Shown here: piece after piece, positions 11,457-29,428 of the stretch | How the letters are laid out: every line of letters starts with the position of its first letter | How positions within the stretch are numbered: the stretch's first letter is position 1 | DNA from: an uncultured Lachnospiraceae bacterium | Lineage (GTDB): Bacteria; Bacillota; Clostridia; Lachnospirales; Lachnospiraceae | Direction of reading: 5' to 3' | Assembly (NCBI GenBank): GCA_902797675.1 | Contig: CADBTR010000011.1 | Coordinates: forward strand, 1-35,879 | DNA: 35,879 bases | Program-made: the position numbers and the translations under genes | Notes under the pieces: model-generated | What the model saw: only the letters and a program-made list of their open reading frames with translations | Databases searched by the model: none | What the model was told of the DNA's origin: nothing

Positions 11457-13361
11457 ATGATTGAGTTTCTATACCGACATCCGGAGGGCTATATCGAAGC
11501 AAGTTCGCTTCTTTTTGATGTGTTACTGATTATTTTTACAGCGCTTCAGACGAGAAACGGGCAGGTAAAGATTTTCCGGAGACTTCTTTATTTATCTACT
11601 GTTCTTACTTTGTGTGAGGTGATCTCTACATCATGGATGAAAGACCTGCCTGCAACAAAGTTTTCTTTCTATGCGATCAATCTTGCGAATACGATGGTTT
11701 ATTTGTGCACCTGCCTGATCGGATACTGGCTGGCAAATTATTTTGCGGAGACTTTTCGGGTGCGGTGGCCTTTTTTTATTGAATATCTGAGAAATACGCT
11801 GTTGTTTTTTTACATGCTGGTTCTGCTGTTAAATATTCAGACCGGTTGTATTTCCCTTTATCGTTACGATACGGGGGAATATGTTCACGGCAGAATGTTT
11901 TTCCCGGTAGGAAATGGGATTCCTTTATTCTTCTTTGCCTGTGCGCTGATTGTTTTTTTTAAGACATTTCCGCAGATGAAAGGGAAAATGCGACTGTCCA
12001 TGTGCTGCGTGATGGGACTTACCGTGGCGGGGGCGATTGTACAGCCTTTGTTTAACGATAAGGTTTCCATTACCGGATTATTTGCTTCGCTTGCCATAGC
12101 ACTTCTCTACTTCTCCATTGAGACAAGAGATTATAACGAATTGCATGTTGCAACGGAAAAGTTGAAAAAAGCCAGAGAAAACGCACTGACCGCAAATGAG
12201 GCAAAAAGTACCTTTCTGGAGAATATGTCCCATGAAGTAAGGACTCCGCTGAATGCGATTCTCGGGTTGAATGAACTTGTCATAAAGGAAAGCAGGGATG
12301 AGAAAACAAGAGAATACGCAAAGGATATGCTTACGGCGGGACAGACATTGCTTTCGGTCATCAGTGACGTGCTGGATGTGTCACTGGTGGAATCGGGGAA
12401 GTTAGAGATTGAAGACCGGAAGTATCATTTTTCCAATGCATTGCGCGCCTGCAAGGTCATTATCGGCGCCAGAGCGGAAAAGAAAAATCTGGATTTCCGG
12501 GTAAATGTGGACGAAACGCTGCCGGATGTATTATCCGGTGACGAGGGCAGGATCCGGCAGGTCATGATAAATCTTCTTAATAACGCTGTGAAATATACGG
12601 AACACGGAAGAGTGGAGCTTGAAGTACAGGGGGATACGCAAGGCGACATGCTCCACCTTACAATCGCAGTGTCCGATACCGGAATCGGGATCAAAGAGGA
12701 GGATCGCCAGAAACTGTTTCAGAGTTATGAGCGTTTTGACCGCGCGAAAAACAGAAAGGTGGAGGGTACCGGTCTTGGATTGTCTATTGTGCACCAGATT
12801 ATAGAAAAGATGGGCGGAACGATTGACGTAAAAAGCGCTTACGGGGTAGGCAGTACTTTTACCGTGCGGATTGCGCAAAGAGTCTTGGATTCCGTTACCA
12901 TTGAGGAATACCGGCAGCAAAAGACCGGATATCAAAAACCGCCGTATATCATAAGAATCCCGTCGGCAAAGCTGTTGATCGTTGACGATAATGAGATGAA
13001 TCTGAAGGTGGCAAAGGGGTTGTTGAGAAATTCCGGCGCGGAGATTTTTCTGGCGAATGGCGGCGAAGAAGCGCTTCGGATTCTTGAGACAGAAAAGTTT
13101 GATTTGGTATTCATGGATTCTTTTATGCCGGTGGTGGATGGAACCGAAGTGCTTCATATCGTGCGGGAGGATCGGAATCACTTGAATTATCATACGCCGA
13201 TGGCGGTTGTGACTGCAGACGCCTTAAGTGATTCCAGGGAGAAATATATGAAAGTCGGATTTGACGGATATATCAGCAAACCGATGCGGGCGGAAAAACT
13301 ATATAAAATGATAGAAAAACTGATGTCGGAAGATAAATTGATAAAAGAAGAACTCCTATGA
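11457..13361 (+). CDS. Hybrid histidine kinase 1 (7TM-like sensor, HisKA, HATPase, REC)
   Basis: A 634-residue hybrid sensor kinase. About seven hydrophobic segments lie in residues 15-220. A coiled-coil linker follows, then HisKA with phospho-His259 in NMSHEVRTPLNAI. The HATPase domain is complete: N-box NLLNNAVKYT near 372-381, DTGIGI at 407-412, GTGLGLSIV near 437-445. The receiver (505-622) has Asp510/Asp511, phospho-Asp554 in FMDSFMP, and Lys608 in SKP. It should autophosphorylate on His259 and pass phosphate to Asp554 and on to an HPt protein. The neighbouring gene is a tandem duplicate with the same layout. The ligand is unknown. It is the first gene of a tightly packed cluster that leads to the HD-GYP output. 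Confidence 0.93.
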   Translation: MIEFLYRHPEGYIEASSLLFDVLLIIFTALQTRNGQVKIFRRLLYLSTVLTLCEVISTSWMKDLPATKFSFYAINLANTMVYLCTCLIGYWLANYFAETFRVRWPFFIEYLRNTLLFFYMLVLLLNIQTGCISLYRYDTGEYVHGRMFFPVGNGIPLFFFACALIVFFKTFPQMKGKMRLSMCCVMGLTVAGAIVQPLFNDKVSITGLFASLAIALLYFSIETRDYNELHVATEKLKKARENALTANEAKSTFLENMSHEVRTPLNAILGLNELVIKESRDEKTREYAKDMLTAGQTLLSVISDVLDVSLVESGKLEIEDRKYHFSNALRACKVIIGARAEKKNLDFRVNVDETLPDVLSGDEGRIRQVMINLLNNAVKYTEHGRVELEVQGDTQGDMLHLTIAVSDTGIGIKEEDRQKLFQSYERFDRAKNRKVEGTGLGLSIVHQIIEKMGGTIDVKSAYGVGSTFTVRIAQRVLDSVTIEEYRQQKTGYQKPPYIIRIPSAKLLIVDDNEMNLKVAKGLLRNSGAEIFLANGGEEALRILETEKFDLVFMDSFMPVVDGTEVLHIVREDRNHLNYHTPMAVVTADALSDSREKYMKVGFDGYISKPMRAEKLYKMIEKLMSEDKLIKEELL

Positions 13362-13410: not shown

Positions 13411-15273
13411 ATGCAGTATCTTTTTGATTATCCGAAGATTATGATGGAGTGGCTTGCGATTTTATATAATATTATATTGCTTTTGTTCGCGGCGAATCAG
13501 AAGAGTCAGAATGCAAAGAGCGGGAAAATTTTTGTTCTGATGGGCTGCACATTGACCTGTCTGACCTTATGTGAGGTGTATGCCCCATGGTTTTATGCAT
13601 TGCCTGCCGGTTATCATCTTCTTAAAATGATCGTGGATTCTTTGCAATTTTATTTTTCGCTGTCCAGTGAAGTTTTGTTTGCGAAATATGTGGAGAGTAT
13701 GTTTTCTTATCGACCGAAACAATGGGTGGTCAGATTAAACAGCGTGATCCTGATTTTTGCCATTTTAGTGATCGCAGGCAATCCATGGACCGGTCTTGTG
13801 GATATGTATAATGAGACAACAAGATCATTTGACAACGGAAGTCTTTATATTGCGGCAGGCTATCTTCCCAGCGGATATTTCAGTCTGTATACGCTGATGC
13901 TGTATTTTAAGCATTGGAAAGTGATGGATATCTGGGAGCGGTTTGCTCTGGGAGTCTCTTTGTTTCTGATCATTTGCGGAGCTGTTTTCCAGCCGCTGAT
14001 GCATGGACGTTTGAAGATTATCGGATTATTTGCAACTGCCTCTTATTTTGTGCTGTTTTTAGCGTTGGAATCCAGAAATTATCAGGAACTCAGCAAGACA
14101 AGGGAAAAGATGGAGGAAGCCCGGGCGGAGGCTCAGGCGGCAGAGAAGGCGAAGAATATCTTTTTGGCAAATATGTCACATGAACTCAGGACGCCGATGA
14201 ATGCAATTCTGGGAATGAATGATTTGGTCTTGCAGGAAAACAAAGAATCTGCTATTCTTACTTATGCAAGGGATATCAAAAGCGCCGGAGAAGGTCTTCT
14301 GACCATCATCAATGATGTGCTTGATATCTCAAGAATTGAAGCTGGTAAGATGGAACTGTATATCGTCGGTTATTCCAGAGACCGTCTGGTGGAGGACATG
14401 AGAAATTTGATGGCGGAGCGCGCCAGGGATTCCGGGCTGCAATGCACGGTGTCCGTGGGACGGGAAGTGCCGGAAATCCTCTATGGAGACGAACAGAGAG
14501 TGAGGGAGATACTTACAAGATTGCTGGATAATGCTTTTAAATTTACGGAAGAGGGCAGGGTGCAGCTTTCCATTTTGATCGCAAATAAAGAATTGATTTT
14601 TAAGGTGGAGGATTCCGGGAGGGGAATCCCGAAAGAGGATATGCCGGACATTTTTGAAAGTTTTAAACGGGCAGATATCGGAAATAACCGGAGCATTGAG
14701 GGAGCCGGACTGGGGCTTACCATCGTAAAAAGCATTACCGCGCTGATGGACGGGCAGGTGGAAGTGTCCTCCGAACAGGGAAAAGGTACCTGTTTTACCG
14801 TAAGACTTCCGCTTTTGGAGGAAAAGGATCAGAACGGATTAAATCGGGCGATCCCGGAGGGTACGGATAGGAAGGATCTTCCGGATTTGTCGGGAAAGCG
14901 TATCTTCATCGTGGATGATAACCGCATGAATCTGAAGGTTGCGGAAAAATTACTGGCGAAGACCGGGGGCTTGATTTTTACTGAGGAGAGCAGCATCAAA
15001 GCGGTGCAATATATGATGATGGAGCGGTATGATATGATATTCTTAGATCATATGATGCCGGAATTAAACGGTCTCGAAGTATTTCATAAGATCCGGAACG
15101 GAAACGGTCCGAATTGCAAGACCGGAATTATCATCATGACGGCGAATGACTCCCCGGAAGATGAGAGAAAATATCTGGAAATGGGCTTTGACGGTTATGT
15201 GGCAAAACCGGTAAAACCGGAGAAACTTGCGAGAGCGTTATGGGGACTGGAAACGGTACAACACAAAGGATAA
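13411..15273 (+). CDS. Hybrid histidine kinase 2, tandem paralogue of kinase 1
   Basis: A 620-residue hybrid kinase with the same architecture as its upstream neighbour. It has multiple membrane helices (about 12-222), HisKA with His257 in NMSHELRTPMNAI, HATPase motifs RLLDNAFKFT (370-379), DSGRGI (401-406) and GAGLGLTIV (431-439), and a receiver with Asp502/Asp503, phospho-Asp546 in FLDHMMP, and Lys599. The two sensors share recognisable blocks near the last helix (GA[IV][VF]QPL, then GLFA, then E[ST]R[DN]Y.EL), so this is a gene duplication with sensor divergence. GGAAAGGAGG precedes the ATG. A broken HPt gene follows directly and may once have been its partner. Confidence 0.93.
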   Translation: MQYLFDYPKIMMEWLAILYNIILLLFAANQKSQNAKSGKIFVLMGCTLTCLTLCEVYAPWFYALPAGYHLLKMIVDSLQFYFSLSSEVLFAKYVESMFSYRPKQWVVRLNSVILIFAILVIAGNPWTGLVDMYNETTRSFDNGSLYIAAGYLPSGYFSLYTLMLYFKHWKVMDIWERFALGVSLFLIICGAVFQPLMHGRLKIIGLFATASYFVLFLALESRNYQELSKTREKMEEARAEAQAAEKAKNIFLANMSHELRTPMNAILGMNDLVLQENKESAILTYARDIKSAGEGLLTIINDVLDISRIEAGKMELYIVGYSRDRLVEDMRNLMAERARDSGLQCTVSVGREVPEILYGDEQRVREILTRLLDNAFKFTEEGRVQLSILIANKELIFKVEDSGRGIPKEDMPDIFESFKRADIGNNRSIEGAGLGLTIVKSITALMDGQVEVSSEQGKGTCFTVRLPLLEEKDQNGLNRAIPEGTDRKDLPDLSGKRIFIVDDNRMNLKVAEKLLAKTGGLIFTEESSIKAVQYMMMERYDMIFLDHMMPELNGLEVFHKIRNGNGPNCKTGIIIMTANDSPEDERKYLEMGFDGYVAKPVKPEKLARALWGLETVQHKG

Positions 15274-15289
15274 GGAAGGATTTGACGAG

Positions 15290-15524
15290 ATGATGCTTCG
15301 GGAGGCGAAAGACGAGAGAATATTGGAATATGCTTCTAAGGTAAAGACAAGCGGGGAGATGTTACAGGCGTTTTTTTGATGGAAAATATGGAGAGAATCT
15401 GGAAGAACTTTTTGAAGGGGAAGATTGGGAGAATTACCGGATCAGGGTGCATGCATTGAAGTCCACGTCATTGAATGACAAGGTGGTAAAGCAGATTGCT
15501 GCATATATGGAACAGGCAGGTTGA
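15290..15524 (+). pseudogene. Broken HPt (histidine phosphotransfer) gene remnant
   Basis: Two reading frames here each hold part of an HPt domain. From ATG 15290 one frame reads MMLREAKDER to SGEMLQAFF and stops at 15377. Removing one T from the seven-T run (15371-15377) continues it as DGKYGENLEELFEG, then EDWENYRIRVHALKSTSLN with the phosphotransfer His, then DKVVKQIAAYMEQAG and a stop at 15522. The same motif occurs intact at 23010-23080 (EGEDWENYRITVHALKSGSLN). Compared with that copy, about 38-40 residues are missing between SLN and DKV. A frameshift plus an internal deletion means it is very probably inactive. A real slippage product would still lack the second half of the helical bundle. 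Confidence 0.75.
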
Positions 15525-15540
15525 GATTGGAGGAAAAGCA

Positions 15541-16929
15541 ATGGTAAAGATTTTGGTGACAGACGATGATAAAATGAGTCTGATGATGGCAAAGCGTGTT
15601 TTGGAAAAGAAAGGGTATCAGGTATTGACGGCGGAGAATGGAAAAGACTGCGTGATCACGCTGCGCCGCGAGAAGGTGGATCTGCTGTTGCTTGATGTGG
15701 AGATGCCCGGAATGTCGGGGCTTGAGACACTGGCGCAGATCCGGAAAGACGCTGCCACGGCAGATGTAAAGACTGTATTTTTGACGTCCTATGCTTTTCA
15801 GGAGAATATCGTAGAGGCTTTGCGGCTTGGCGCGCTGGATTTTGTAAAAAAACCGTTTATGGCGGATCAGTTGTACGACCATGTGGAGAAGGCACTTCGG
15901 ATGGGGAGAAAATCAGTGCTTCTGGCAGTGGATGACGAGCCGATGAATCTGATAATGACAAAGAGGATCTTCGGGATCCGCTATCAGGTGGAAACGGCGC
16001 AGTCCGGGTATGATGCGTTAATTGCCGTAAAAAAAATAAAGCCGGACGTGATCCTGCTGGATCTGCATATGCCGGGAATGAACGGACTTGAGGTGTTTGA
16101 GAAGTTACATAAGCTGGAGGAATGTGAAAATATTCCGGTGGTATTTTTGACGGCGGATGAAGATAAAGATACGGAGGCAAAATTATTTAAAGAAGGAGCT
16201 TCTGATTTTATCAAGAAACCGATGATCCCTGAGATTGCCATTCAGCGTATCAACCGTATAGTGGAGAACCGCTATATGCAGGAATCGTTGAAGGATGAAG
16301 TATACCGGAAGACGGAGGCTTTGCAGATCAGCAATGGAAAGGTCAAAAATCTGGTAAATCAGATCATGTTTGCGCTTTCCGGTGCTATCGATGCAAAAGA
16401 TCCTTATACGAACGGTCATTCCAGCCGCGTGGCGAAGTACGCAAAAGAAATCGCGTCGCGTATGGGATATGATGGGCAGGAATTGGAAGATGTCTACGCG
16501 GCAGGACTTTTGCATGATGTGGGAAAAATCGGTGTGAGAGATGTGATCATCAATAAACTGGGAAGACTGACGGAGGAGGAATTTCGGGAAATTAAGAGTC
16601 ATACGGTGATCGGGGCGCGGATCCTTGAGCGGATTTCCGAACTGCCGTTACTTTCCATTGGCGCCCACTGGCATCACGAAAGATATGACGGAAAAGGATA
16701 TCCGGACGGCTTAAGCGGTACGTCGATCCCGGAGATTGCAAGAATCGTCTGCGTGGCGGATTGTTATGACGCAATGACCTCCAACAGAAGCTATCGTGAT
16801 GCCCTTCCCCAGAAAGTGGTGCGGGGCGAGATCGAGAAGGGATTGGGATCGCAATTTGATCCCCGTATCGGAAAAATCATGCTGGATATGATCGATGAAG
16901 ATCCGGAATATGCGATGAAAGAGAATTGA
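15541..16929 (+). CDS. Tandem-receiver HD-GYP c-di-GMP phosphodiesterase
   Basis: A 462-residue soluble response regulator. REC1 (1-120) has Asp8-Asp10 and phospho-Asp52 in LLDVEMPG; REC2 (124-242) has Asp131/Asp132 and phospho-Asp174 in LLDLHMPG. Both keep the Lys of KKP. The HD-GYP domain (about 275-455) has His293 in GHSSRVA, His325-Asp326 in LLHDVGKIG, His354, His378-His379 in HWHHERYDGKGYPDG with GYP at 386-388, and VADCYDAMTSNRSYR, so the metal and GYP motifs are complete. It should hydrolyse c-di-GMP, which usually favours motility. GGAGG (15529-15533) decides the start at 15541; reading further upstream would run into the broken HPt gene. It is the only obvious output protein of the cluster and so the likely end of the phosphorelay. 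Confidence 0.93.
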   Translation: MVKILVTDDDKMSLMMAKRVLEKKGYQVLTAENGKDCVITLRREKVDLLLLDVEMPGMSGLETLAQIRKDAATADVKTVFLTSYAFQENIVEALRLGALDFVKKPFMADQLYDHVEKALRMGRKSVLLAVDDEPMNLIMTKRIFGIRYQVETAQSGYDALIAVKKIKPDVILLDLHMPGMNGLEVFEKLHKLEECENIPVVFLTADEDKDTEAKLFKEGASDFIKKPMIPEIAIQRINRIVENRYMQESLKDEVYRKTEALQISNGKVKNLVNQIMFALSGAIDAKDPYTNGHSSRVAKYAKEIASRMGYDGQELEDVYAAGLLHDVGKIGVRDVIINKLGRLTEEEFREIKSHTVIGARILERISELPLLSIGAHWHHERYDGKGYPDGLSGTSIPEIARIVCVADCYDAMTSNRSYRDALPQKVVRGEIEKGLGSQFDPRIGKIMLDMIDEDPEYAMKEN

Positions 16930-16943
16930 GACGAGGTATTTTT

Positions 16944-18614
16944 ATGAAAGAAGAATATGAGACGTCTTATCATTTGATGATTCTGGCAGTGTTTTCCATC
17001 CTTGGAATTTTGCTTATCACCGTGAATGTGATATCGGGCTGGAGTGTGGTTGCGGTTCCGGTGATTGTTTTGCTGCTGGGGAGTGTCTGGGGAATTCATT
17101 TTCTGAAATTTGGAAAGAGTAAGACGAGAGTATATATCTATATTATCCTGATCTTAGGAGTTTTGTTTTATTACGGCTATCACACGGAGACCGTTACGGA
17201 TATTCCGATGATCCTGGCGCTGCTGATCATTGTGCTGATCGGACAGCATGATATGCATCTGATTTATCTGGTGGCATTTTCTTATTTTCTGATGCTTGCG
17301 GAAAATATTTTTATCACCGGATTTCTGGGACCAGATATGAGTCAGTTGACGGCATCCAGAACCGCGCTCGGAATGATTATTATTATTTGTTCGATCATGG
17401 TGGCGCGCTTTTTTATCCGTATGGACTTACGCGATAAAGATTCCATTGAAATCCTGCAGGAACAGCTGTATCAGGCAAAAGGAGAAAATGAGCAATATCT
17501 TTCCAATATTTCACATGAACTTCGCACGCCCATCAATGCCGTAAACGGAATGAGCGAGATTTTGCTTCACCGGAATCTGGACGAGGAGATGGCGGCTCAG
17601 ATACAGGTCATTCAGGACGCGGGGAAGAGACTTTACCGTCAGGTCAGCGATATGATCGATTTTTCGGAATTACAGACCGGACATTTTGTTTTGCAATATG
17701 AGAATTATGAACCCTTATCGGTGATAAACGATGCCATATCCGCTGTATTCGGGCGGGAGATGACAAAAAAACTGGATTTTGCCATTGATGTGAATCCTTA
17801 TTTTAATTATGCGAAATATACAAGACCGGTGATCGGGGAATATTATTCCCGCATGCTCAATCATGTCCGCATTGGTTTAAAGATGGATATTCGTGAGACA
17901 ACCTCTTTGAAGGAATTGAAAAAAAATGTGGAAAAAGGCGGTTACAGCCACGTGTTTGTCGCGCGCTGGGAGTATGAAATGGAGCCGGATTTTTTTGCGC
18001 GCCTGAGCAGAAAATGTCATGTGGTGATATTTACGGATCACAGGCTTTCTATGCCGTCGGATAGCAGGATACGGCAGATGATAAAACCGATCTACCTTCT
18101 TACTGTGGTGAATTATCTGAAAGAAAGCATGACCGGTGAAAGGGAAGATGAGAATGAAGAGACGGAATGGAAGGGATATCGTCCGCCGCGGGCGTTGATC
18201 GTCGATGATGATGAGATGAATATTATCGTGGCAAACGGGATCTTGAAGAATCTGGGTGTGGAGACGGAAAGCTGTACCGGCGGTGAGGTGGCTATCGGAT
18301 TGTGCAAGGAGAGAGAATATGATATTATCTTTATGGATTATATGATGCCGGGAATGAACGGAACAGACGCTATGAAAAAAATTCGGGAATTGAAGGACGG
18401 TTACTATAAAAAGATTCCGATCATTGTGTTGACGGCCAATGCGGTGAGCAGCGCCAGAGCAGGTTTTTTGCTGGACGGTTTTGATGAATTTATCTCAAAA
18501 CCGATCGAGATACCGGTTATGAAAAAAGTACTCCGCACATTTTTGGAGGGATCGGCATCCGACCGGATTTATTCACATGATAAAGGATCGTTATCAGAGG
18601 AGGGACGGGAATAG
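16944..18614 (+). CDS. Hybrid kinase-like protein lacking the ATPase domain (TM, HisKA, degenerate receiver, REC)
   Basis: A 556-residue protein. Five or six membrane helices lie in residues 10-158. HisKA follows with His191 in NISHELRTPINAV. The usual HATPase domain should come next, but no N-box, DxGxG or GxGLGL motif exists anywhere. Instead residues about 296-395 look like a degraded receiver: hydrophobic strands at 334-339 (YSHVFV) and 358-364 (CHVVIFT) and a KPIYL near 381, with no phospho-Asp. A complete receiver follows (416-535: DDDE at 421-424, phospho-Asp465 in FMDYMMPG, Lys519). It cannot make its own phosphate but could be phosphorylated on His191 by another kinase of the cluster or act as a scaffold. 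The gene starts 14 bases after the HD-GYP gene; the ATG with ACGAGGT upstream was chosen over a TTG at 16926. Confidence 0.85.
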   Translation: MKEEYETSYHLMILAVFSILGILLITVNVISGWSVVAVPVIVLLLGSVWGIHFLKFGKSKTRVYIYIILILGVLFYYGYHTETVTDIPMILALLIIVLIGQHDMHLIYLVAFSYFLMLAENIFITGFLGPDMSQLTASRTALGMIIIICSIMVARFFIRMDLRDKDSIEILQEQLYQAKGENEQYLSNISHELRTPINAVNGMSEILLHRNLDEEMAAQIQVIQDAGKRLYRQVSDMIDFSELQTGHFVLQYENYEPLSVINDAISAVFGREMTKKLDFAIDVNPYFNYAKYTRPVIGEYYSRMLNHVRIGLKMDIRETTSLKELKKNVEKGGYSHVFVARWEYEMEPDFFARLSRKCHVVIFTDHRLSMPSDSRIRQMIKPIYLLTVVNYLKESMTGEREDENEETEWKGYRPPRALIVDDDEMNIIVANGILKNLGVETESCTGGEVAIGLCKEREYDIIFMDYMMPGMNGTDAMKKIRELKDGYYKKIPIIVLTANAVSSARAGFLLDGFDEFISKPIEIPVMKKVLRTFLEGSASDRIYSHDKGSLSEEGRE

Positions 18615-21600
18615 ATGGAAAAGACGGATATTTTAATTACGGCAGACAGCATCTGTGATCTGCCGGCAGAATTGACAACGTCTCTCCCCATTGTTTTTAT
18701 GCCGTTCTATATTCTTGCCGGTGAGGGAAGATTTGTAGATGGCAAGGAGGTCAATGCGGAGGCAATTCTAAGATATATGCAGGAAGGTCATAAAGTAGCG
18801 TCGGTTCCGCCCTCAAAGGAAGAATATCTTCAATTTTTCCAGGAACAGCTTGCAAGTGCCGGACAGATCTTACATATCACCATGGGAAAAAAATCTTCGG
18901 ACAGTTATTCCAACGCGCTGGCTGCGGCAAAAGACCTGAATAAGGTAACGGTCTTTGATTCCGGACAGATCTCCGGAGGCTATGGTCTGGTTGTTTTGCA
19001 TGCGGCAAAACTTGCGGCGGATCAGTTAAGTTTTGAGAGAGTATTATCGGAGACGAAACGGTTGGCAGCCGCAGTGTCTTCGGACTTTATCGTTAAAGAT
19101 ACCACCTATATGAAACAGGCGGGGAGGATATCCGGAAGCGCGAAGAACTTAAGCGACAGTCTGATGGCAAGACCGCTGCTCGGAATGAGGGATGACAGGA
19201 TTGCGGTGCGTGATATTTTTTTCGGACGGTGGGAACAGGTGATCCGGCAATATGTCAGAAAGAAATTTTACGGAAGACAGGATATTGATACCTCTGTTCT
19301 GTTCGTAACGTGTGTGGGATGTGAGAAAAAAACACAGGAACTGATCCGGGAGGAGGTCGGAAAATATATCCGTTTTGAAAAGATTTATTTTCAACCGGCG
19401 TCCGCTGCTGTGTCCGGTAACAGCGGAGCAGGCACTTTTGGTTTATTTTTTCAAAAAAAATTAAGACAGCGAAAGAGCAGTCAGAATGAAAAGAGAGAAG
19501 GATCTTTCGTGGAAAATGTGCGAAGGAGAATTCTTTCCACCATTGTCAGACCGGAATTGACGATCCAGCAGAGAGTAATGAATCTGATCCTTTATGCGGC
19601 GTTGATCGGCGGCAGCGTTTCACTGGCAATAAACCTTGTTTTGCAGGCATGGAAGGCATCGGGAGCTGTTGCGGTGATGCTGCTTGCAGTGTTTTTTTCA
19701 ATCTGGCTTTCAAAGCACAAGAGCCAGGAAGCAGGCGGGATTTTTATCTGCAGTGTGGCGAATTTTATTTTATTCCCGATCATGTTTTTTGTATCCGGAG
19801 GGATTCACAGCGGAATGCCGGTCTGGCTGGTACTGGGGCTGATCCTTGACTGGCTGATCCTGAAAGGCTGGACCAGCATCATATTGTTTGCGTTGCATTT
19901 TTCCTGTGTGGCAGCCTGCATCTGGGTGTCAGAGTCGAATAAGGAATTGCTTGCAGAAATGCCGGAAAATTATATGATGTATGATGTCATGCAGACGATT
20001 TTTATTGTGGCGTGTATTTTCGGCATTATTTTTAAATATCAGAGTTATGTATATGAAAAACAAAATCAGAAATTAAAAGAACATGAGCAGGAACTGGTGG
20101 CGGCAAGCAGTGCGAAAGATATTTTTCTGGCAAATATGTCCCATGAGATCAGAACTCCTATCAATGGAATTATCGGAATGGATACGATGCTTTTGAAGGA
20201 ACGGGGGAATGATCCGAAAGTTCAGGAGTATGCCGTGAATATCCGAAACGCCAGTCAGACACTGCTTTCCATTGTAAATGATATATTGGATATTTCAAAG
20301 ATCGAGTCCGGAAAGATGGAACTGGTTCCGGTGAGATACGAACTTTTTTCCGTTCTGTCAGAATGTTTTGTGATGACTACCGCAAGGATTCAGGATAAGC
20401 CGATTCAGTTTCATGTGCGTCTGAATCCGGCAATTCCGGAGGAATTATACGGGGATGAAGTGCGTTTGCGCCAGATCATGAATAATTTATTGTCCAACGG
20501 AGTGAAATATACGCCGGAAGGCAGAGTAACGCTGACAGTAGATATGGAACAGAAAAATGACGCGGTGATCCTGCTTTTGATCTCTGTTTCAGATACCGGA
20601 ATCGGGATCCGCAGGCAGGATATGGATAAGCTGTTTCATAATTTTACCAGACTGGATGAGGAAAAGAACCGGAATGTGGAGGGAACCGGTCTGGGCTTGA
20701 ATCTTACCAGAAGGCTGGTTGAGATGATGGGAGGCACCATCAGTGTAGACAGTATTTACGGGCAGGGTTCCACCTTTACCGTCAGGATTCCGCAGGCAAT
20801 CAAAAGCCGGAATCCTGTCGGGGATTTTGAAAAGAGGATGCAGGCGGAACTGACGGAGAATATCACCACGAAAGTCGGCGTTTACGCGCCGGAGGCATCA
20901 GCGCTGGTAGTGGATGATGTGCCGATGAATCTTATGGTGATCCGGGGATTGTTAAAATATACGGAAATGACGGTGGATACGGCGGATAGCGGAAAAAAAG
21001 CGCTGGAACTTGCTGGCCGGAAGAAATATGATATTATTTTTATGGATCATCTGATGCCGGGTATGGATGGCGTGGAATGTTTCAAATGTATGCAAAGTCT
21101 CGCACTCAATCAGGATACACCGGTGATCATATTGACGGCAAATGCTGTTCTGGGCGCAAGAAAGGAATATCTGAAAATCGGATTTACGGATTATCTGTCA
21201 AAACCGATTGAAGATGAGCAATTGTATGAACAGCTGCAAAAATATCTTCCAAAGGAGAAATTAAAGGAGCCTCCGCAGGAGGAAGCTGATATTCGGGAAG
21301 CGGGCGTTAAAGAAAAAAAACAAAGGGAAAAACAGCGACAGGCGCAGGAAGAACCGGAACATTTGTCATGGATGGACAGGCTCCGGCGGATCGACGGACT
21401 GGATGCGGATCTCGGTTTGCAATATTGCATGGAGGAGGAAGATCTTTACAGAGAGGCTCTGGGGATGTATATTTCCGGTGAAAAGAGTGAGGCTTTGGAT
21501 CAGTGTTTAAAACAAGAGGATTTTGAGAATTACCGGATCTATGTTCATGCTTTAAAGAGTACATCGATGAACATCGGAGCAACTGTGTTGTCTGAAGAAG

Positions 21601-21722
21601 CGAGGATCTCAGAATTTGCCTGTAAAGAGGAAAATTATGAGTTGGTAGAGATGAGGCATGAAGAACTCATGAGGCAGTATCGGGAATTGTTGCGCAGATT
21701 GAGACAGGAGACCGGAGGGTAA
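18615..21722 (+). CDS. DegV-domain hybrid histidine kinase with C-terminal HPt
   Basis: A 1035-residue six-part fusion. Residues 1-282 form a DegV (EDD-fold) domain: DSICDLP at 11-17, VPPS at 64-67, the FDSGQISGGYG region at 114-124, MKQAGRISG at 166-174, and a closing GNSGAGTFGLFF. DegV/FakB proteins bind a fatty acid. Residues 320-475 contain about six membrane helices. HisKA has His510 (NMSHEIRTPING); HATPase has NNLLSNGVKYT, DTGIGI (660-665) and GTGLGLNL; REC has Asp767/Asp768, phospho-Asp811 and Lys863; HPt (about 920-1030) has His978 in VHALKST. A charged linker at 880-912 joins REC and HPt. The His that precedes GPG in FakB-type proteins appears to be Asn269 here, so lipid binding is uncertain. 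The ATG directly follows the previous stop, with GAGGAGGG upstream. All steps of a relay from ATP to HPt are on one chain. Confidence 0.92.
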   Translation: MEKTDILITADSICDLPAELTTSLPIVFMPFYILAGEGRFVDGKEVNAEAILRYMQEGHKVASVPPSKEEYLQFFQEQLASAGQILHITMGKKSSDSYSNALAAAKDLNKVTVFDSGQISGGYGLVVLHAAKLAADQLSFERVLSETKRLAAAVSSDFIVKDTTYMKQAGRISGSAKNLSDSLMARPLLGMRDDRIAVRDIFFGRWEQVIRQYVRKKFYGRQDIDTSVLFVTCVGCEKKTQELIREEVGKYIRFEKIYFQPASAAVSGNSGAGTFGLFFQKKLRQRKSSQNEKREGSFVENVRRRILSTIVRPELTIQQRVMNLILYAALIGGSVSLAINLVLQAWKASGAVAVMLLAVFFSIWLSKHKSQEAGGIFICSVANFILFPIMFFVSGGIHSGMPVWLVLGLILDWLILKGWTSIILFALHFSCVAACIWVSESNKELLAEMPENYMMYDVMQTIFIVACIFGIIFKYQSYVYEKQNQKLKEHEQELVAASSAKDIFLANMSHEIRTPINGIIGMDTMLLKERGNDPKVQEYAVNIRNASQTLLSIVNDILDISKIESGKMELVPVRYELFSVLSECFVMTTARIQDKPIQFHVRLNPAIPEELYGDEVRLRQIMNNLLSNGVKYTPEGRVTLTVDMEQKNDAVILLLISVSDTGIGIRRQDMDKLFHNFTRLDEEKNRNVEGTGLGLNLTRRLVEMMGGTISVDSIYGQGSTFTVRIPQAIKSRNPVGDFEKRMQAELTENITTKVGVYAPEASALVVDDVPMNLMVIRGLLKYTEMTVDTADSGKKALELAGRKKYDIIFMDHLMPGMDGVECFKCMQSLALNQDTPVIILTANAVLGARKEYLKIGFTDYLSKPIEDEQLYEQLQKYLPKEKLKEPPQEEADIREAGVKEKKQREKQRQAQEEPEHLSWMDRLRRIDGLDADLGLQYCMEEEDLYREALGMYISGEKSEALDQCLKQEDFENYRIYVHALKSTSMNIGATVLSEEARISEFACKEENYELVEMRHEELMRQYRELLRRLRQETGG

Positions 21723-21727
21723 AAACC

Positions 21728-23239
21728 ATGTTTGATATTATTATAAATTGTGCATTGCTGGTCGTCGGGACATTTTGCCTTGTCATGGGAGTCAGTTTTT
21801 TTCTGCGTGAAAAAGAGGCGGTGGAGTTTCGGATCCCGATCCTTCTGATGGGCGTCTTTGTTGCCATGTGGTGCGGCGGTTACGGAGTGATGGGATTTTG
21901 CTTAGAGGTTAAAAATGCCCATGCATTCCGCACGCTGGGATTGCTCGGAATCGAGGGATATCTGACTACCGGTATTTATTTCATGGCGAAACTTGCGGGA
22001 TTCCATCAGTGGCATTTCAGAATTGTGGTGGGAGTTACCGTGTTTATCAGTTTTTTGGATTACCTGTTGTTCGGAGATGGCGGTAATCTGGAATACGTGA
22101 TGAGCGGAAGGAGAATGGCATTTTATGCAAAACATACATTTGCCCGAAACTTTCATGACGGTTATATTTTTTTTATGTTTGTTGCCCTGCTTTCCATTGC
22201 ATTATATTGCAGGAAAAAATCCAGATACAAGAGGGAAAAAAATTTCGTCTGGTATGCGACATTTATGAATATCGCAATTATTCTTGCCAGTATTCCGGAT
22301 ACCTTTATGCCATTATTTCAACTTCCGTCGATTCCCATATCAGGATTCGGGGCGGTCATCGGCTATACCTGTATCTGGGTGATGGCGTCAAATTTCAGCG
22401 CGATCAGTATTTCGCTCCGGACTTTGAGCACTCAGATCTTAGAGTCGGTACATGTGGGAGTGTTGCTTACGGATACCGGGGGAAAGGTCGTTCATGTGAA
22501 TGCATTTGCGAAACAGATGTTAAAGCTGGAAAATGTGTCGGATAAGAAACTTTCGGAGCTGTTTGAACTCAGCGATGAAGTGGCGGAGCATGTGATGGAG
22601 GAGGCAAAGCAAAGCGGAGAATTGCAGTTTCGCTGGTATGCGAGGCGAAGCGGTGCCCACTGTATGGTAGATCCTTCCGTGGTCAGAGATCATTACGGGG
22701 AGATTTATTGTTATATCTTTGCGCTCTATGATGTTACCAGAGAAGACAGTCTGACGGAAAAAGTGCTGGAGTCCAAAGCGATTCCGGTAGCGGTGCAGCC
22801 TGAGAGTATACAGAAGCCGGAGATTCCGCAGGAAGCAGAATCTTCGCAGGAATCAGAACCCCTGCAGAAAGCGGAAGTTTTGCAGAAAGCGGAACCGGAG
22901 AAATTGTTTGATCCTGAGATCGGAAGAAGTTATTGCATGGATGATGAGGAATTTTATCGGGAGATTTTACAATCTTATCTGGATTCGGAGCATGGGGTGA
23001 AACTTTCCGAATATTTTGAAGGGGAAGACTGGGAGAATTATCGCATTACCGTTCACGCTTTGAAATCCGGTTCATTAAATATCGGAGCAGAGAATTTGTC
23101 GGAGGAGGCAAAAGCCAGTGAAATGGCGCTTCGTGATGATAAACCGGAATATGTGAGAGAACATCACAGGGAACTGATCGCGCATTATGATAAGGTGACG
23201 GGTGCGATAAAGGGTTACCTTGGGAGGCCGGATACATGA
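21728..23239 (+). CDS. Membrane PAS-HPt protein without kinase domain
   Basis: A 503-residue membrane protein. Seven hydrophobic segments lie in residues 4-225, an N-terminal 7TM layout like that of some sensor kinases. A PAS-like domain (about 236-345) begins LESVHVGVLLTDTGGKVVHVN. A Gln/Glu/Pro-rich linker (355-392) has repeats such as LQKAE. The HPt domain (395-498) has His443 in VHALKSGSLNIGAENL. There is no HisKA, HATPase or receiver domain. It therefore cannot start phosphorylation and probably accepts phosphate from receivers of the neighbouring hybrid kinases and delivers it to the HD-GYP receivers, possibly under PAS or membrane control. It starts five bases after the DegV-kinase stop and overlaps the MATE gene by four bases (ATGA), so translation is probably coupled. 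Confidence 0.88.
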   Translation: MFDIIINCALLVVGTFCLVMGVSFFLREKEAVEFRIPILLMGVFVAMWCGGYGVMGFCLEVKNAHAFRTLGLLGIEGYLTTGIYFMAKLAGFHQWHFRIVVGVTVFISFLDYLLFGDGGNLEYVMSGRRMAFYAKHTFARNFHDGYIFFMFVALLSIALYCRKKSRYKREKNFVWYATFMNIAIILASIPDTFMPLFQLPSIPISGFGAVIGYTCIWVMASNFSAISISLRTLSTQILESVHVGVLLTDTGGKVVHVNAFAKQMLKLENVSDKKLSELFELSDEVAEHVMEEAKQSGELQFRWYARRSGAHCMVDPSVVRDHYGEIYCYIFALYDVTREDSLTEKVLESKAIPVAVQPESIQKPEIPQEAESSQESEPLQKAEVLQKAEPEKLFDPEIGRSYCMDDEEFYREILQSYLDSEHGVKLSEYFEGEDWENYRITVHALKSGSLNIGAENLSEEAKASEMALRDDKPEYVREHHRELIAHYDKVTGAIKGYLGRPDT

Positions 23240-27078: not shown

Positions 27079-28038
27079 ATGGGCGAGGCAATCGCGGGAT
27101 TTGCAAAAACCTATCTGCCGTTAAAACTGGAATTTACGGATATTGTTGAGATTATTATTATCTCATTTATGATATATGAAGTGCTGCGCTGGGTTCGTTA
27201 TACAAGAGCGTGGCAGCTGATGAAAGGAATCATTGTGATTGCTGTCTTTATCGGCATTGCAGCATTTTTTAAATTAAGCACGATCTTGTGGATCGTAGGA
27301 AAAGCCATCAATATTCTGATGATCGGAGTAGTTGTGGTATTTCAGCCGGAATTGCGCAAGATATTGGAACAGTTGGGACGGAAGAATTTTCTGGCGCCGA
27401 TTTTTGTGGATTCGTCAGAGGGAAATGAGCGGTTTAGCGACAAAACGATAGATGAGCTGGTGCGGGCAACTTATGAGATGGCGAAGGTGAAAACCGGAGC
27501 CTTAATTGTGATTGAGCAGGATACCAACCTGTCAGAGTATGAGAGCACCGGAATTGCATTGGATTCTCTTGTCAGCAGTGAATTGCTGATCAATATTTTT
27601 GAACATAATACCCCTTTGCATGACGGAGCTGTGATCATGCGTGGAAACCGGTTGGTGGCCGCCACCTGTTATCTGCCTTTGTCCGATAATATGGAGTTGA
27701 GCAAAGAACTTGGCACAAGGCATCGGGCGGCAGTGGGAATCAGTGAAGTGACGGATTCCTTTACCATCGTGGTTTCAGAGGAAACCGGCTCTGTTTCTAT
27801 TGCTGTGGCGGGACGGATATTCCGGAATGTGGACGGCGATAAGCTGCAGGCGCATCTGGTGCGTTTGCAGAACAAGCAGATCGATGTGAAGCGCTTTCGG
27901 CTTTGGAAGATCAGGAATGATAAGACAAAAATTATCAAGGAAAAGGAAGAAAAGAAAAAACAGGATGAAAAATCCAATCAGAGAGGAAATAAGAAGGAAA
28001 AGCAGAGAAACAGGAAAAAGAAGCGCAATGACAAATAA
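27079..28038 (+). CDS. cdaA: Diadenylate cyclase CdaA (c-di-AMP synthase)
   Basis: A 319-residue membrane enzyme. Three N-terminal helices (about 20-38, 47-64, 68-88) are followed by the DAC catalytic domain (about 95-260) with the DGA motif (182-184) in HDGAVIMRGN and the RHR motif (214-216) in LGTRHRAAVGISE. It condenses two ATP to c-di-AMP, the messenger controlling potassium, osmotic and cell-wall balance in Firmicutes. The C-terminus (about 280-319) is very Lys/Glu-rich and longer than in typical CdaA. Its usual partners cdaR and glmM follow. GGAGTGAG upstream and the start MGEAI support the chosen ATG. Confidence 0.96.
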   Translation: MGEAIAGFAKTYLPLKLEFTDIVEIIIISFMIYEVLRWVRYTRAWQLMKGIIVIAVFIGIAAFFKLSTILWIVGKAINILMIGVVVVFQPELRKILEQLGRKNFLAPIFVDSSEGNERFSDKTIDELVRATYEMAKVKTGALIVIEQDTNLSEYESTGIALDSLVSSELLINIFEHNTPLHDGAVIMRGNRLVAATCYLPLSDNMELSKELGTRHRAAVGISEVTDSFTIVVSEETGSVSIAVAGRIFRNVDGDKLQAHLVRLQNKQIDVKRFRLWKIRNDKTKIIKEKEEKKKQDEKSNQRGNKKEKQRNRKKKRNDK

Positions 28039-28054
28039 GAACTGAGGGATTATC

Positions 28055-29428
28055 ATGAAAAAATTTTTTACAGAGAATTTAATATTGAAAATTCTATCGG
28101 TGTTTTTGGCGATCCTTACATGGATCGTTGTTATGAATGTGGAGGATCCGGTAAAAACCAGAACGATCGCGGGAATTAAGGTAGAAATACTGAATGAAGA
28201 CGTGATTACAGGTCAGAACCAGGTTTATACGGTAACGGAAGGACAACTGATCTCCGTAAAGGTTTCAGGACCGCGGACAATGGTGGATTCTTTAAAATCG
28301 ACGGATTTTACGGCAACTGCGGATTTTCAGGATATTTCTCAGGCGAATTCGGTTCCGATCAATGTGGAATTGACAGAGTATGCCAATCAGCAGAAGATCA
28401 CGATTTCCGAAAAATCCAATAATACCATGCGACTCAGTGTGGAAGCATTGGTAGACCAGGAATATCCGGTGAAGGTAAAATATCTGGGAGCCATGCCGGA
28501 GAATTATGTTATCGGACAATCCAATCCGCAGATCACATCGATTACAGTGAATGCTCCGGAATCTGTTCATAATGAGATCGAATCGGTATGCGCTGCGGTG
28601 GATGTAACGAATGCTACGGAGGATTTTGACTCCAGTTCGGAGATCCGCATTTATACGAGGAACGGAGTGGAACTTGCGCAGCCGGATAATAATGTGACGC
28701 CCAGTGTACAGACGATCCTGATCCAGAATATTGTCTATTATACGAAAAAAGTTCCGATTATCTGCGGATCGGTTGACAGTGATGGAAAAAATGTTTCCGT
28801 TTCGGGAATATCCTTAAGTCAGGACAGCGTTCAGATTATGGGAAAAAAGAATGTGCTCGATGCGGTGGAACACATTTATATCAATTCAGAAAATCTGAAA
28901 GTGGATGGACAGGAAAATCAGACTACAAAGGAATATACATGGGAGGAACTGCTGCCGGAGGGCGTATATATTAACGAGGATACCACCGGTCTTACGATCA
29001 CTATCGCAACAGAGGATATTATCCAGAAGAGCTTTGACATGGAAGTAAAGGATATCGGGATCAAAAATATTCCGGATGGAATGGATGCCTCCATAGAGAA
29101 TACCGGTTCCATCACCGTGACGGTCGAGGGAGCGGATGCCTTAGTCAGGGCGTTGGATATATCCCAGATCGCAGCTTCAGTCAGCATGCAGGGCAGCAGT
29201 CCGGGGATAACGCAGGCACGTGTAGAACTTCAACTGCCGGAGGGAGTCACTCAGGTAGAGACTACGTATGTGAATGTGAAACTCACATTAAAGGAAACAG
29301 AGACATTAGAACAAAGTACAAGTACAGTAACAACAGCGACGGTGACAGCGGAAACGACAACCGTGATGGAGAATGAGACTACACAGGAAGAAACGACACA
29401 GATTTCAGACAGTCGGGAGGAGCAGTAG
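28055..29428 (+). CDS. cdaR: YbbR-domain protein CdaR, regulator of CdaA
   Basis: A 457-residue protein with a single N-terminal membrane helix (about 10-27) preceded by MKKFFTENLILK, followed by extracytoplasmic YbbR repeats (four expected; blocks start near VEDPVKTRTIAGIKV, EYPVKVKYLGAMPE, KKVPIICGSV and FDMEVKDIGIKN). CdaR binds CdaA and modulates c-di-AMP production. The C-terminal tail (about 415-457) is unusually Thr/Glu-rich and probably disordered, suited to a wall-exposed tether. It lies 16 bases after cdaA and 14 before the HPr-like gene. Confidence 0.93.
   Translation: MKKFFTENLILKILSVFLAILTWIVVMNVEDPVKTRTIAGIKVEILNEDVITGQNQVYTVTEGQLISVKVSGPRTMVDSLKSTDFTATADFQDISQANSVPINVELTEYANQQKITISEKSNNTMRLSVEALVDQEYPVKVKYLGAMPENYVIGQSNPQITSITVNAPESVHNEIESVCAAVDVTNATEDFDSSSEIRIYTRNGVELAQPDNNVTPSVQTILIQNIVYYTKKVPIICGSVDSDGKNVSVSGISLSQDSVQIMGKKNVLDAVEHIYINSENLKVDGQENQTTKEYTWEELLPEGVYINEDTTGLTITIATEDIIQKSFDMEVKDIGIKNIPDGMDASIENTGSITVTVEGADALVRALDISQIAASVSMQGSSPGITQARVELQLPEGVTQVETTYVNVKLTLKETETLEQSTSTVTTATVTAETTTVMENETTQEETTQISDSREEQ

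Follow-up and report, generated by a model that had tools for sequence, protein, structure and literature searches.

What does a DegV domain do at the head of a sensor kinase? The question is raised by a 35,879-nucleotide contig from an uncultured Lachnospiraceae bacterium (GenBank assembly GCA_902797675.1, contig CADBTR010000011.1, forward strand; the full length analysed is called the window here). One of its open reading frames (ORFs), at 18615-21722 on the plus strand, encodes both a domain of the FakB/DegV carrier family and a hybrid histidine kinase (HK). An earlier note, made from the letters of this DNA alone, had pointed out the fusion, noting that DegV proteins normally act alone, and had placed the DegV domain in the position of a cytoplasmic sensor. 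Our comparison of related loci suggests a wider context – the domain would be a ligand-binding module of FakB origin in a relay of two kinases and one HPt that leads to cyclic di-GMP (c-di-GMP), a reading to which we assign a probability of roughly 55%.

A DegV domain fused to a complete hybrid kinase

The DegV-kinase gene encodes 1035 amino acids in a single unbroken frame, with the domain order DegV, six transmembrane helices, HisKA, HATPase, REC and HPt. The N-terminal DegV domain (18615..19469, residues 1-285) matches Pfam PF02645 at residues 6-281 (E 3e-36, 125.6 bits) and scores 138.4 bits against the NCBIfam DegV model TIGR00762, for which the cut-off is 99.7. About six transmembrane helices with short loops are predicted from overlapping hydropathy peaks at residues 324-473 (19584..20033), and six helices also appear in the matching membrane region when a full-length relative is modelled with AlphaFold2 (AF2). 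A Pfam scan of residues 324-473 gave no match, and no extracellular sensor domain was found in this region. The topology supports placement of the DegV domain on the cytoplasmic side.

HisKA (His510) and HATPase_c (together 20115..20798) match Pfam at residues 501-566 and 613-728, well above cut-off, and a motif alignment found the N, G1 and G2 boxes of HATPase_c intact. REC (Asp811; 20904..21236) matches Response_reg at residues 764-874 (E 2.3e-26), likewise far over its cut-off, as is the DegV match. The HPt domain (His978; 21489..21707) carries an HALKS motif and matches Pfam Hpt at residues 959-1031 with 20.8 bits, under the cut-off of 24.6; the Hpt domains of relatives clear that cut-off (34.2 bits in a paralogue from the same genome, 28.3 in L081 and 29.2 in L070). 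The HisKA histidine, HATPase boxes, REC aspartate and HPt histidine of a hybrid, phosphorelay histidine kinase are thus all present in the one ORF. The architecture given in the earlier note was recovered throughout, with the HPt match below threshold and with His510, Asp811, His978, Asn269 and a GAG in place of GPG all where it had put them; its six membrane helices agree with both the hydropathy profile and the model of the relative.

The fusion is genuine. A protein from another genome, G280, has DegV, transmembrane, HK and REC parts in the same order in one frame, with a DegV identity of 44-46%, on a contig that stops before any HPt position. This rules out an assembly error as the source of the fusion, one of the outcomes by which the earlier note had said its proposal could fall. 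The G+C content goes from 0.459 to 0.447 across the junction, with no step.

A conserved two-kinase cassette with one HPt

To place the window protein among its relatives, we pooled 144 DegV proteins, 140 of them distinct – the window protein, 61 from genomes of the family and 78 from named records. L145 was removed as a duplicate, and L101-L106 and L107-L122 were kept out of the cassette counts as controls. Domains were counted by phmmer with single query domains, and 20 partner, DegV and neighbour proteins were checked against Pfam; the check identified one L081 neighbour as a metabolic enzyme, ketol-acid reductoisomerase.

The DegV proteins have a regular partner. Directly upstream and on the same strand, 111 of the 140 are preceded by a gene for a complete HK-REC or HK-REC-HPt protein. 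By far the commonest pair is HK-REC-HPt followed by HK-REC-DegV (94/111), and nine further pairs consist of HK-REC and HK-REC-DegV-HPt (9/111). Three pair types occur twice each (2/111): HK-REC with DegV-HK-REC-HPt, which is the arrangement of the window and of the paralogue in its own genome; HK-REC with HK-REC-DegV; and HK-REC-HPt with a free DegV. HK-REC with DegV-HPt and HK-REC with a free DegV were each seen once (1/111).

Across these arrangements the HPt is nearly always present in exactly one member of the pair (108/111); it is in both members in none and in neither in three. When the HPt labels were shuffled, such pairs averaged 87 and never exceeded 98, against the observed 108, a comparison that treats related loci as if they were independent. 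In DegV proteins lacking an HPt the last domain is followed by no more than 20 residues, and in 12 of the 15 HPt-less partners by no more than 23. Because too few residues remain, the HPt absences in the main classes do not represent overlooked matches. Of the three pairs in which no HPt was detected, L075 is a split set whose next upstream kinase carries the HPt, in L092 the HPt is encoded by a gene of its own, and L130 has no such explanation. The partners in the latter two contain 122 unassigned residues, room for a hidden HPt.

The cassettes are commonly found near c-di-GMP-type regulators. Within four genes on each side and on the same strand, 75 of the 111 have an HD-GYP and/or GGDEF gene (46 HD-GYP only, 13 GGDEF only, 16 both), and in many relatives a REC-HD-GYP-type gene lies nearby as it does in the window. 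The remaining cassettes have a stand-alone REC (16/111) or none of these (20/111). The DegV-kinases themselves retain the H, N, G1 and G2 boxes (107 rows), with the G1 aspartate present in 106/107.

The position of the DegV domain varies. It lies behind REC in most members (HK-REC-DegV in 117/140, HK-REC-DegV-HPt in 10/140), and within its clade it also occurs alone, on HPt or, as in the window, before the kinase. We therefore rejected the idea that DegV is, as a general rule, simply an N-terminal sensor. From the cytoplasmic-sensor position proposed in the earlier note, the cytoplasmic part agrees with the topology; the N-terminal place belongs to a small subclade. Statements on that class rest on three proteins – those of the window and G280, and the own-genome paralogue.

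Individual loci show further arrangements. The own-genome paralogue (L061:2783-7501, minus strand; G000:C196) is a 1572-residue DegV-dCache-HisKA-HATPase-REC-HPt protein with its own HK-REC partner upstream. At L070:7595-11803 (minus strand) a minimal form stands in a row: HK-REC, a 414-residue DegV-HPt protein with no kinase, and REC-GGDEF. L139:7790-13436 and L143:7451-13124 (both plus strand) encode divergent HATPase-DegV proteins of 862 and 870 residues with no Pfam HisKA or REC match, followed by genes for 459 and 553/554 residues, both of which encode sensor-GGDEF proteins in L139. L161 and L169 show two DegV-kinases arranged in tandem within a single locus, where a REC-HK-REC-HPt protein comes next.

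One DegV clade on more than one kinase lineage

We compared the histories of the DegV domains and of the kinases in quick trees. The system DegVs formed one side of a branch with a Shimodaira–Hasegawa-like approximate likelihood ratio test (SH-aLRT) support of 99 against 20 stand-alone DegVs (62 rows). The same split was found, again with SH-aLRT 99, against 35 stand-alone DegVs (61 rows), a set that leaves out L102 and L103 (long or partial) and L144.

The kinase-core tree (89 rows, some of them the same protein twice, e.g. L009 and L080) omits the window partner, which has no ATPase domain. In this tree the kinases with a C-terminal-type DegV form one clade (support 99). The window and G280 kinases group with free kinases of other genomes (L003, L063; support 99), and the kinase of the own-genome paralogue groups with another free kinase (support 90). 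The tree as a whole needs three label changes to account for the DegV kinases, and a minimum of two changes is required by its well-supported branches. Those partner kinases that were sampled lie on one side of a branch (support 98). DegV is thus found on a minimum of two kinase lineages and probably on three. Since the DegVs form one clade and the partners one branch while the DegV kinases belong to more than one lineage, the constant pair is DegV plus partner kinase, with the DegV-attached kinase replaced.

Altered ligand-site residues in a retained fold

The AF2 model of the window DegV domain shows a confident DegV fold (predicted local distance difference test score, pLDDT, 92.9), and its 45 best PDB matches in Foldseek are all DegV/FakB chains, with a template modelling score (TM-score) of ~0.8 to FakB structures. 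The assignment of the fold in the earlier note is thereby borne out. In FakB1 the fatty-acid carboxylate is engaged by a hydrogen-bond network of Thr62, Ser95, Ser171 and His270; the kinase reaction requires Arg173, and binding to FakA depends chiefly on Arg205 (excerpts of PMC8892158). The window domain has Ser63, Gly91, Ala169 and Asn269 at the four network positions, keeps Arg173 as Arg171 and has Phe203 in place of Arg205. It therefore has the family profile, the fold and the Arg173 of a FakB carrier, and lacks Arg205 and the His270/Thr62/Ser95 network.

These changes are shared across the system. The His270 position is Asn in 132/140 system DegVs and His in 3/140; the Gly271 position is conserved in 140/140. 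Arg205 is Arg in 2/140, the position being mostly Met, Ile, Phe, Val or Leu. Ser95 is Ala in 91/140 and Ser in 27/140, and Arg173 is retained in 105/140. Stand-alone DegVs have His270 in 35/35, Arg173 in 35/35 and Arg205 in 34/35. With the Arg205 column set by window numbering, 16 of the 20 stand-alones in the smaller set have Arg (L101, L102, L103 and FakB2 do not), and a separate alignment gives 19/20.

The altered residues support a different ligand or role for the system DegVs, in line with the suggestion in the earlier note that the ligand may differ. Because the clade has lost both the FakB histidine and the FakA-docking arginine, feeding a fatty-acid kinase seems an unlikely function. 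The genome of the window also encodes three stand-alone DegVs and one Dak2/FakA-type gene, so that the ordinary fatty-acid-kinase pathway is apparently present beside the system. The proposal that the kinase reads the free fatty-acid or acyl-phosphate state is only partly supported: the acyl-phosphate half is not supported, the Arg205 position being Phe203 in the window and Arg in 2/140 system DegVs.

Similar unfused DegVs of other families (profile scores 224-273 bits) were considered as older members of the system. We took them as ordinary because they keep the His and both Arg and have no kinase beside them in 17/17 loci. No HK, HD-GYP or GGDEF was found in any of these 17 control loci within the available genes, up to four on each side, some contigs being short and the query domains being derived from the window only. 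One weak REC match was the only related domain seen.

Occurrence across genomes

At least 47 of 299 Lachnospiraceae genomes carry a verified DegV module of this system, a minimum taken from the best matches of a search with the DegV part, a few of which were not fetched. DegV-kinase fusions are thus common in the family, and that of the window is not unique. A scan of genome_contigs gave 453 stretches confirmed by tblastn, of which the best 80 were retained as named loci; the query was a closer set of eight DegVs, which biases these 80 towards the C-terminal-type DegV. Some named records are labelled Treponema, Bacteroides, Oscillospiraceae, Clostridiaceae and others. One copy (L218) lies on a 3799-base contig labelled Treponema, which may reflect binning contamination or transfer.

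In 398 genomes from across the phylum, frames of more than 600 residues came, among the matches listed, only from this family (G000 twice, G301 and G221); a 580-residue frame in G407 proved to be a 469-residue ORF with no kinase match. In the other three genomes of the genus we found only short stand-alone DegVs and not the module, and a plasmid search using the DegV-kinase gene gave no match.

Neighbouring genes in the window

The DegV-kinase gene is part of a same-strand run on the plus strand that encodes two hybrid kinases, a REC-REC-HD-GYP protein, a HisKA-REC protein, the DegV-kinase and a PAS-HPt protein. The two hybrid kinases (11457..13361 and 13411..15273) are both HisKA-HATPase-REC proteins by Pfam and may provide further input. 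The REC-REC-HD-GYP protein (15496..16929), a predicted c-di-GMP phosphodiesterase and the likely output, has an HD_5 match (E 2e-31), two Response_reg stretches and both the HDVGK and GKGYP motifs.

The partner kinase (16926..18614) abuts the DegV-kinase gene. Its TTG start was set mechanically, and an ATG six codons inward is equally likely. Its transmembrane part is followed by Pfam matches to HisKA (His196) and REC (Asp471), and no HATPase stands between HisKA and the receiver part; among the 111 partner kinases it is the sole one (1/111) without ATPase boxes. With no ATPase domain left in this partner, phosphate for both members of the window pair probably comes from the DegV-kinase, as judged from their domains. 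Five bp 3' of the DegV-kinase gene begins a gene for a TM-PAS-HPt protein (21728..23239; His443), a second HPt source of the locus, with PAS matches, an HALKS motif and an Hpt score of 22.2 bits, under the cut-off of 24.6.

Further along the window, 27079-28038 encodes a CdaA-type diadenylate cyclase and 28055-29428 a YbbR-like protein, near this c-di-GMP-type locus.

A proposed relay and its alternatives

We propose that a FakB-type DegV was recruited as a module from the fatty-acid-kinase pathway into a phosphorelay, so that in these kinases it may be a lipid sensor instead of a carrier. It would bind a hydrophobic ligand, either a fatty acid or a neutral lipid-like molecule, that it takes from the membrane or shares with it; the latter molecule, possibly not a free carboxylate, is considered because His has become Asn and Ser has become Ala or Gly. 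The ligand-bound and the empty DegV would bias the kinases differently. In the window, phosphate could then pass from His510 via Asp811 to His978, and the REC domains of the HD-GYP protein (15496-16929) would receive it next; in other cassettes it would reach an HD-GYP or GGDEF regulator via the HPt, with a change in c-di-GMP level as the output. Paired Lachnospiraceae sensor kinases with DegV probably steer c-di-GMP. A more specific version – a fatty-acid- or lipid-sensing c-di-GMP relay convergent with RpfC/RpfG, in which a FakB-derived cytoplasmic lipid receptor that moves among the proteins of one relay biases two kinases that share one HPt – is one we advance tentatively.

Several observations weigh against the ligand-binding relay. 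Its ligand, its sensing step and its phosphate path are all deduced from sequence, and with His270 gone, and often Ser95 as well, the pocket may have stopped binding anything. Output or scaffold roles also fit, because most DegVs lie behind REC on a low-confidence linker (one representative modelled), an unusual place for a sensor. Of the 140 DegV proteins, 29 are not in complete pairs: 8 are cut or have no upstream gene, and 21 have another, broken or opposite-strand gene there. No HD-GYP or GGDEF lies within four genes of 36 of the 111 cassettes, although contig ends and single-sequence queries may hide some. Both HPt domains in the window score under the Pfam cut-off, and 'one HPt per cassette' is not strict there, since a second HPt protein is encoded next door. 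Finally, the module would appear to be dispensable, given that the three other genomes of the genus are without it.

The main rival, and a serious one even though we hold it to be unlikely, is that DegV is a ligand-free docking or scaffold domain that holds the two kinases or the HPt together, its pocket being a relic. The domain is found free, on HPt, and both before and behind kinases, as a movable adaptor would be; the carboxylate network is partly dismantled; and the linker behind REC appears flexible. This linker, between REC and DegV, was of low confidence in the full-length AF2 model of the relative, whose predicted TM-score (pTM) of 0.39 makes the domain arrangement unreliable. Yet the DegV fold has been retained, and the Asn269-Gly271 motif is strongly constrained (N269 in 132/140, G271 in 140/140), which is hardly expected of a relic.

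That DegV is instead the output, with REC phosphorylation switching a FakB-like carrier that feeds acyl chains to FakA, would account for most members carrying it after REC, where output domains usually sit, and for the Dak2/FakA-type gene in the genome. We consider it improbable: Arg205 is kept in 2/140, His270 in 3/140 and Arg173 in 105/140, three stand-alone DegVs are already available in the genome, and the N-terminal DegV of the window is far from REC. A chance fusion or assembly artefact with no system-level meaning, favoured by the absence of the module from the other three genomes of the genus, is refuted by independent genomes, given the same order in G280, 140 distinct relatives with a conserved partner and HPt arrangement, and a single DegV clade found on kinases of different lineages, and we give it almost no credence.

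Novelty and significance

Among the papers listed by our searches of the open-access (PMC) literature, which did not extend to subscription papers and preprints, none appears to describe the DegV-kinase cassette; in one of them, PMC12688256, DegV stands as a gene of its own. Curated models such as TIGR00762 match the window protein, so that proteins of this kind probably carry labels from automatic annotation already. If the ligand-binding relay is correct, it would be the first case, to our knowledge, of a FakB/DegV carrier turned signalling receptor. It would also connect, in Lachnospiraceae, membrane or environmental lipids with c-di-GMP, a messenger that sets motility and attachment in many bacteria. 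The repeated re-wiring of DegV – alone, on HPt, behind REC and before the kinase – would amount to a natural experiment on part exchange in multikinase relays, in which DegV and its partner kinase stay, the second kinase is swapped and one HPt per pair is nearly always kept.

Comparison with known systems

Three characterized systems bear a likeness to the cassette. FakB/DegV carriers have the same fold and family profile as the window DegV. Unlike those carriers, the system DegVs are tied to kinases, form a separate clade and have lost Arg205 and His270, often Ser95 and sometimes Arg173.

RpfC pairs with the HD-GYP protein RpfG, and RpfF, the synthase of the diffusible signal factor (DSF), is encoded alongside. 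The window resembles this arrangement in having a membrane HK-REC-HPt protein close to a REC-HD-GYP gene, with one gene between, and in its possible fatty-acid-type input; DSF binds and activates RpfC (excerpts of PMC5391125). Unlike RpfC/RpfG, the Lachnospiraceae system has two kinases, a DegV domain and about six transmembrane helices. No crotonase-type, RpfF-like DSF synthase was matched by Pfam among the 24 window ORFs scanned. We know of no DegV domain in RpfC.

In the LadS/GacS system of Pseudomonas, one hybrid kinase relies on the HPt of a second (excerpts of PMC4866733), and the one-HPt pairs suggest that an HPt is shared here too. Unlike LadS/GacS, the two kinase genes are adjacent, a DegV module is present and c-di-GMP-type regulators, instead of GacA, are found nearby. 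By analogy, the best reading is that the DegV cassette would work like RpfC/RpfG and LadS/GacS while being a member of neither.

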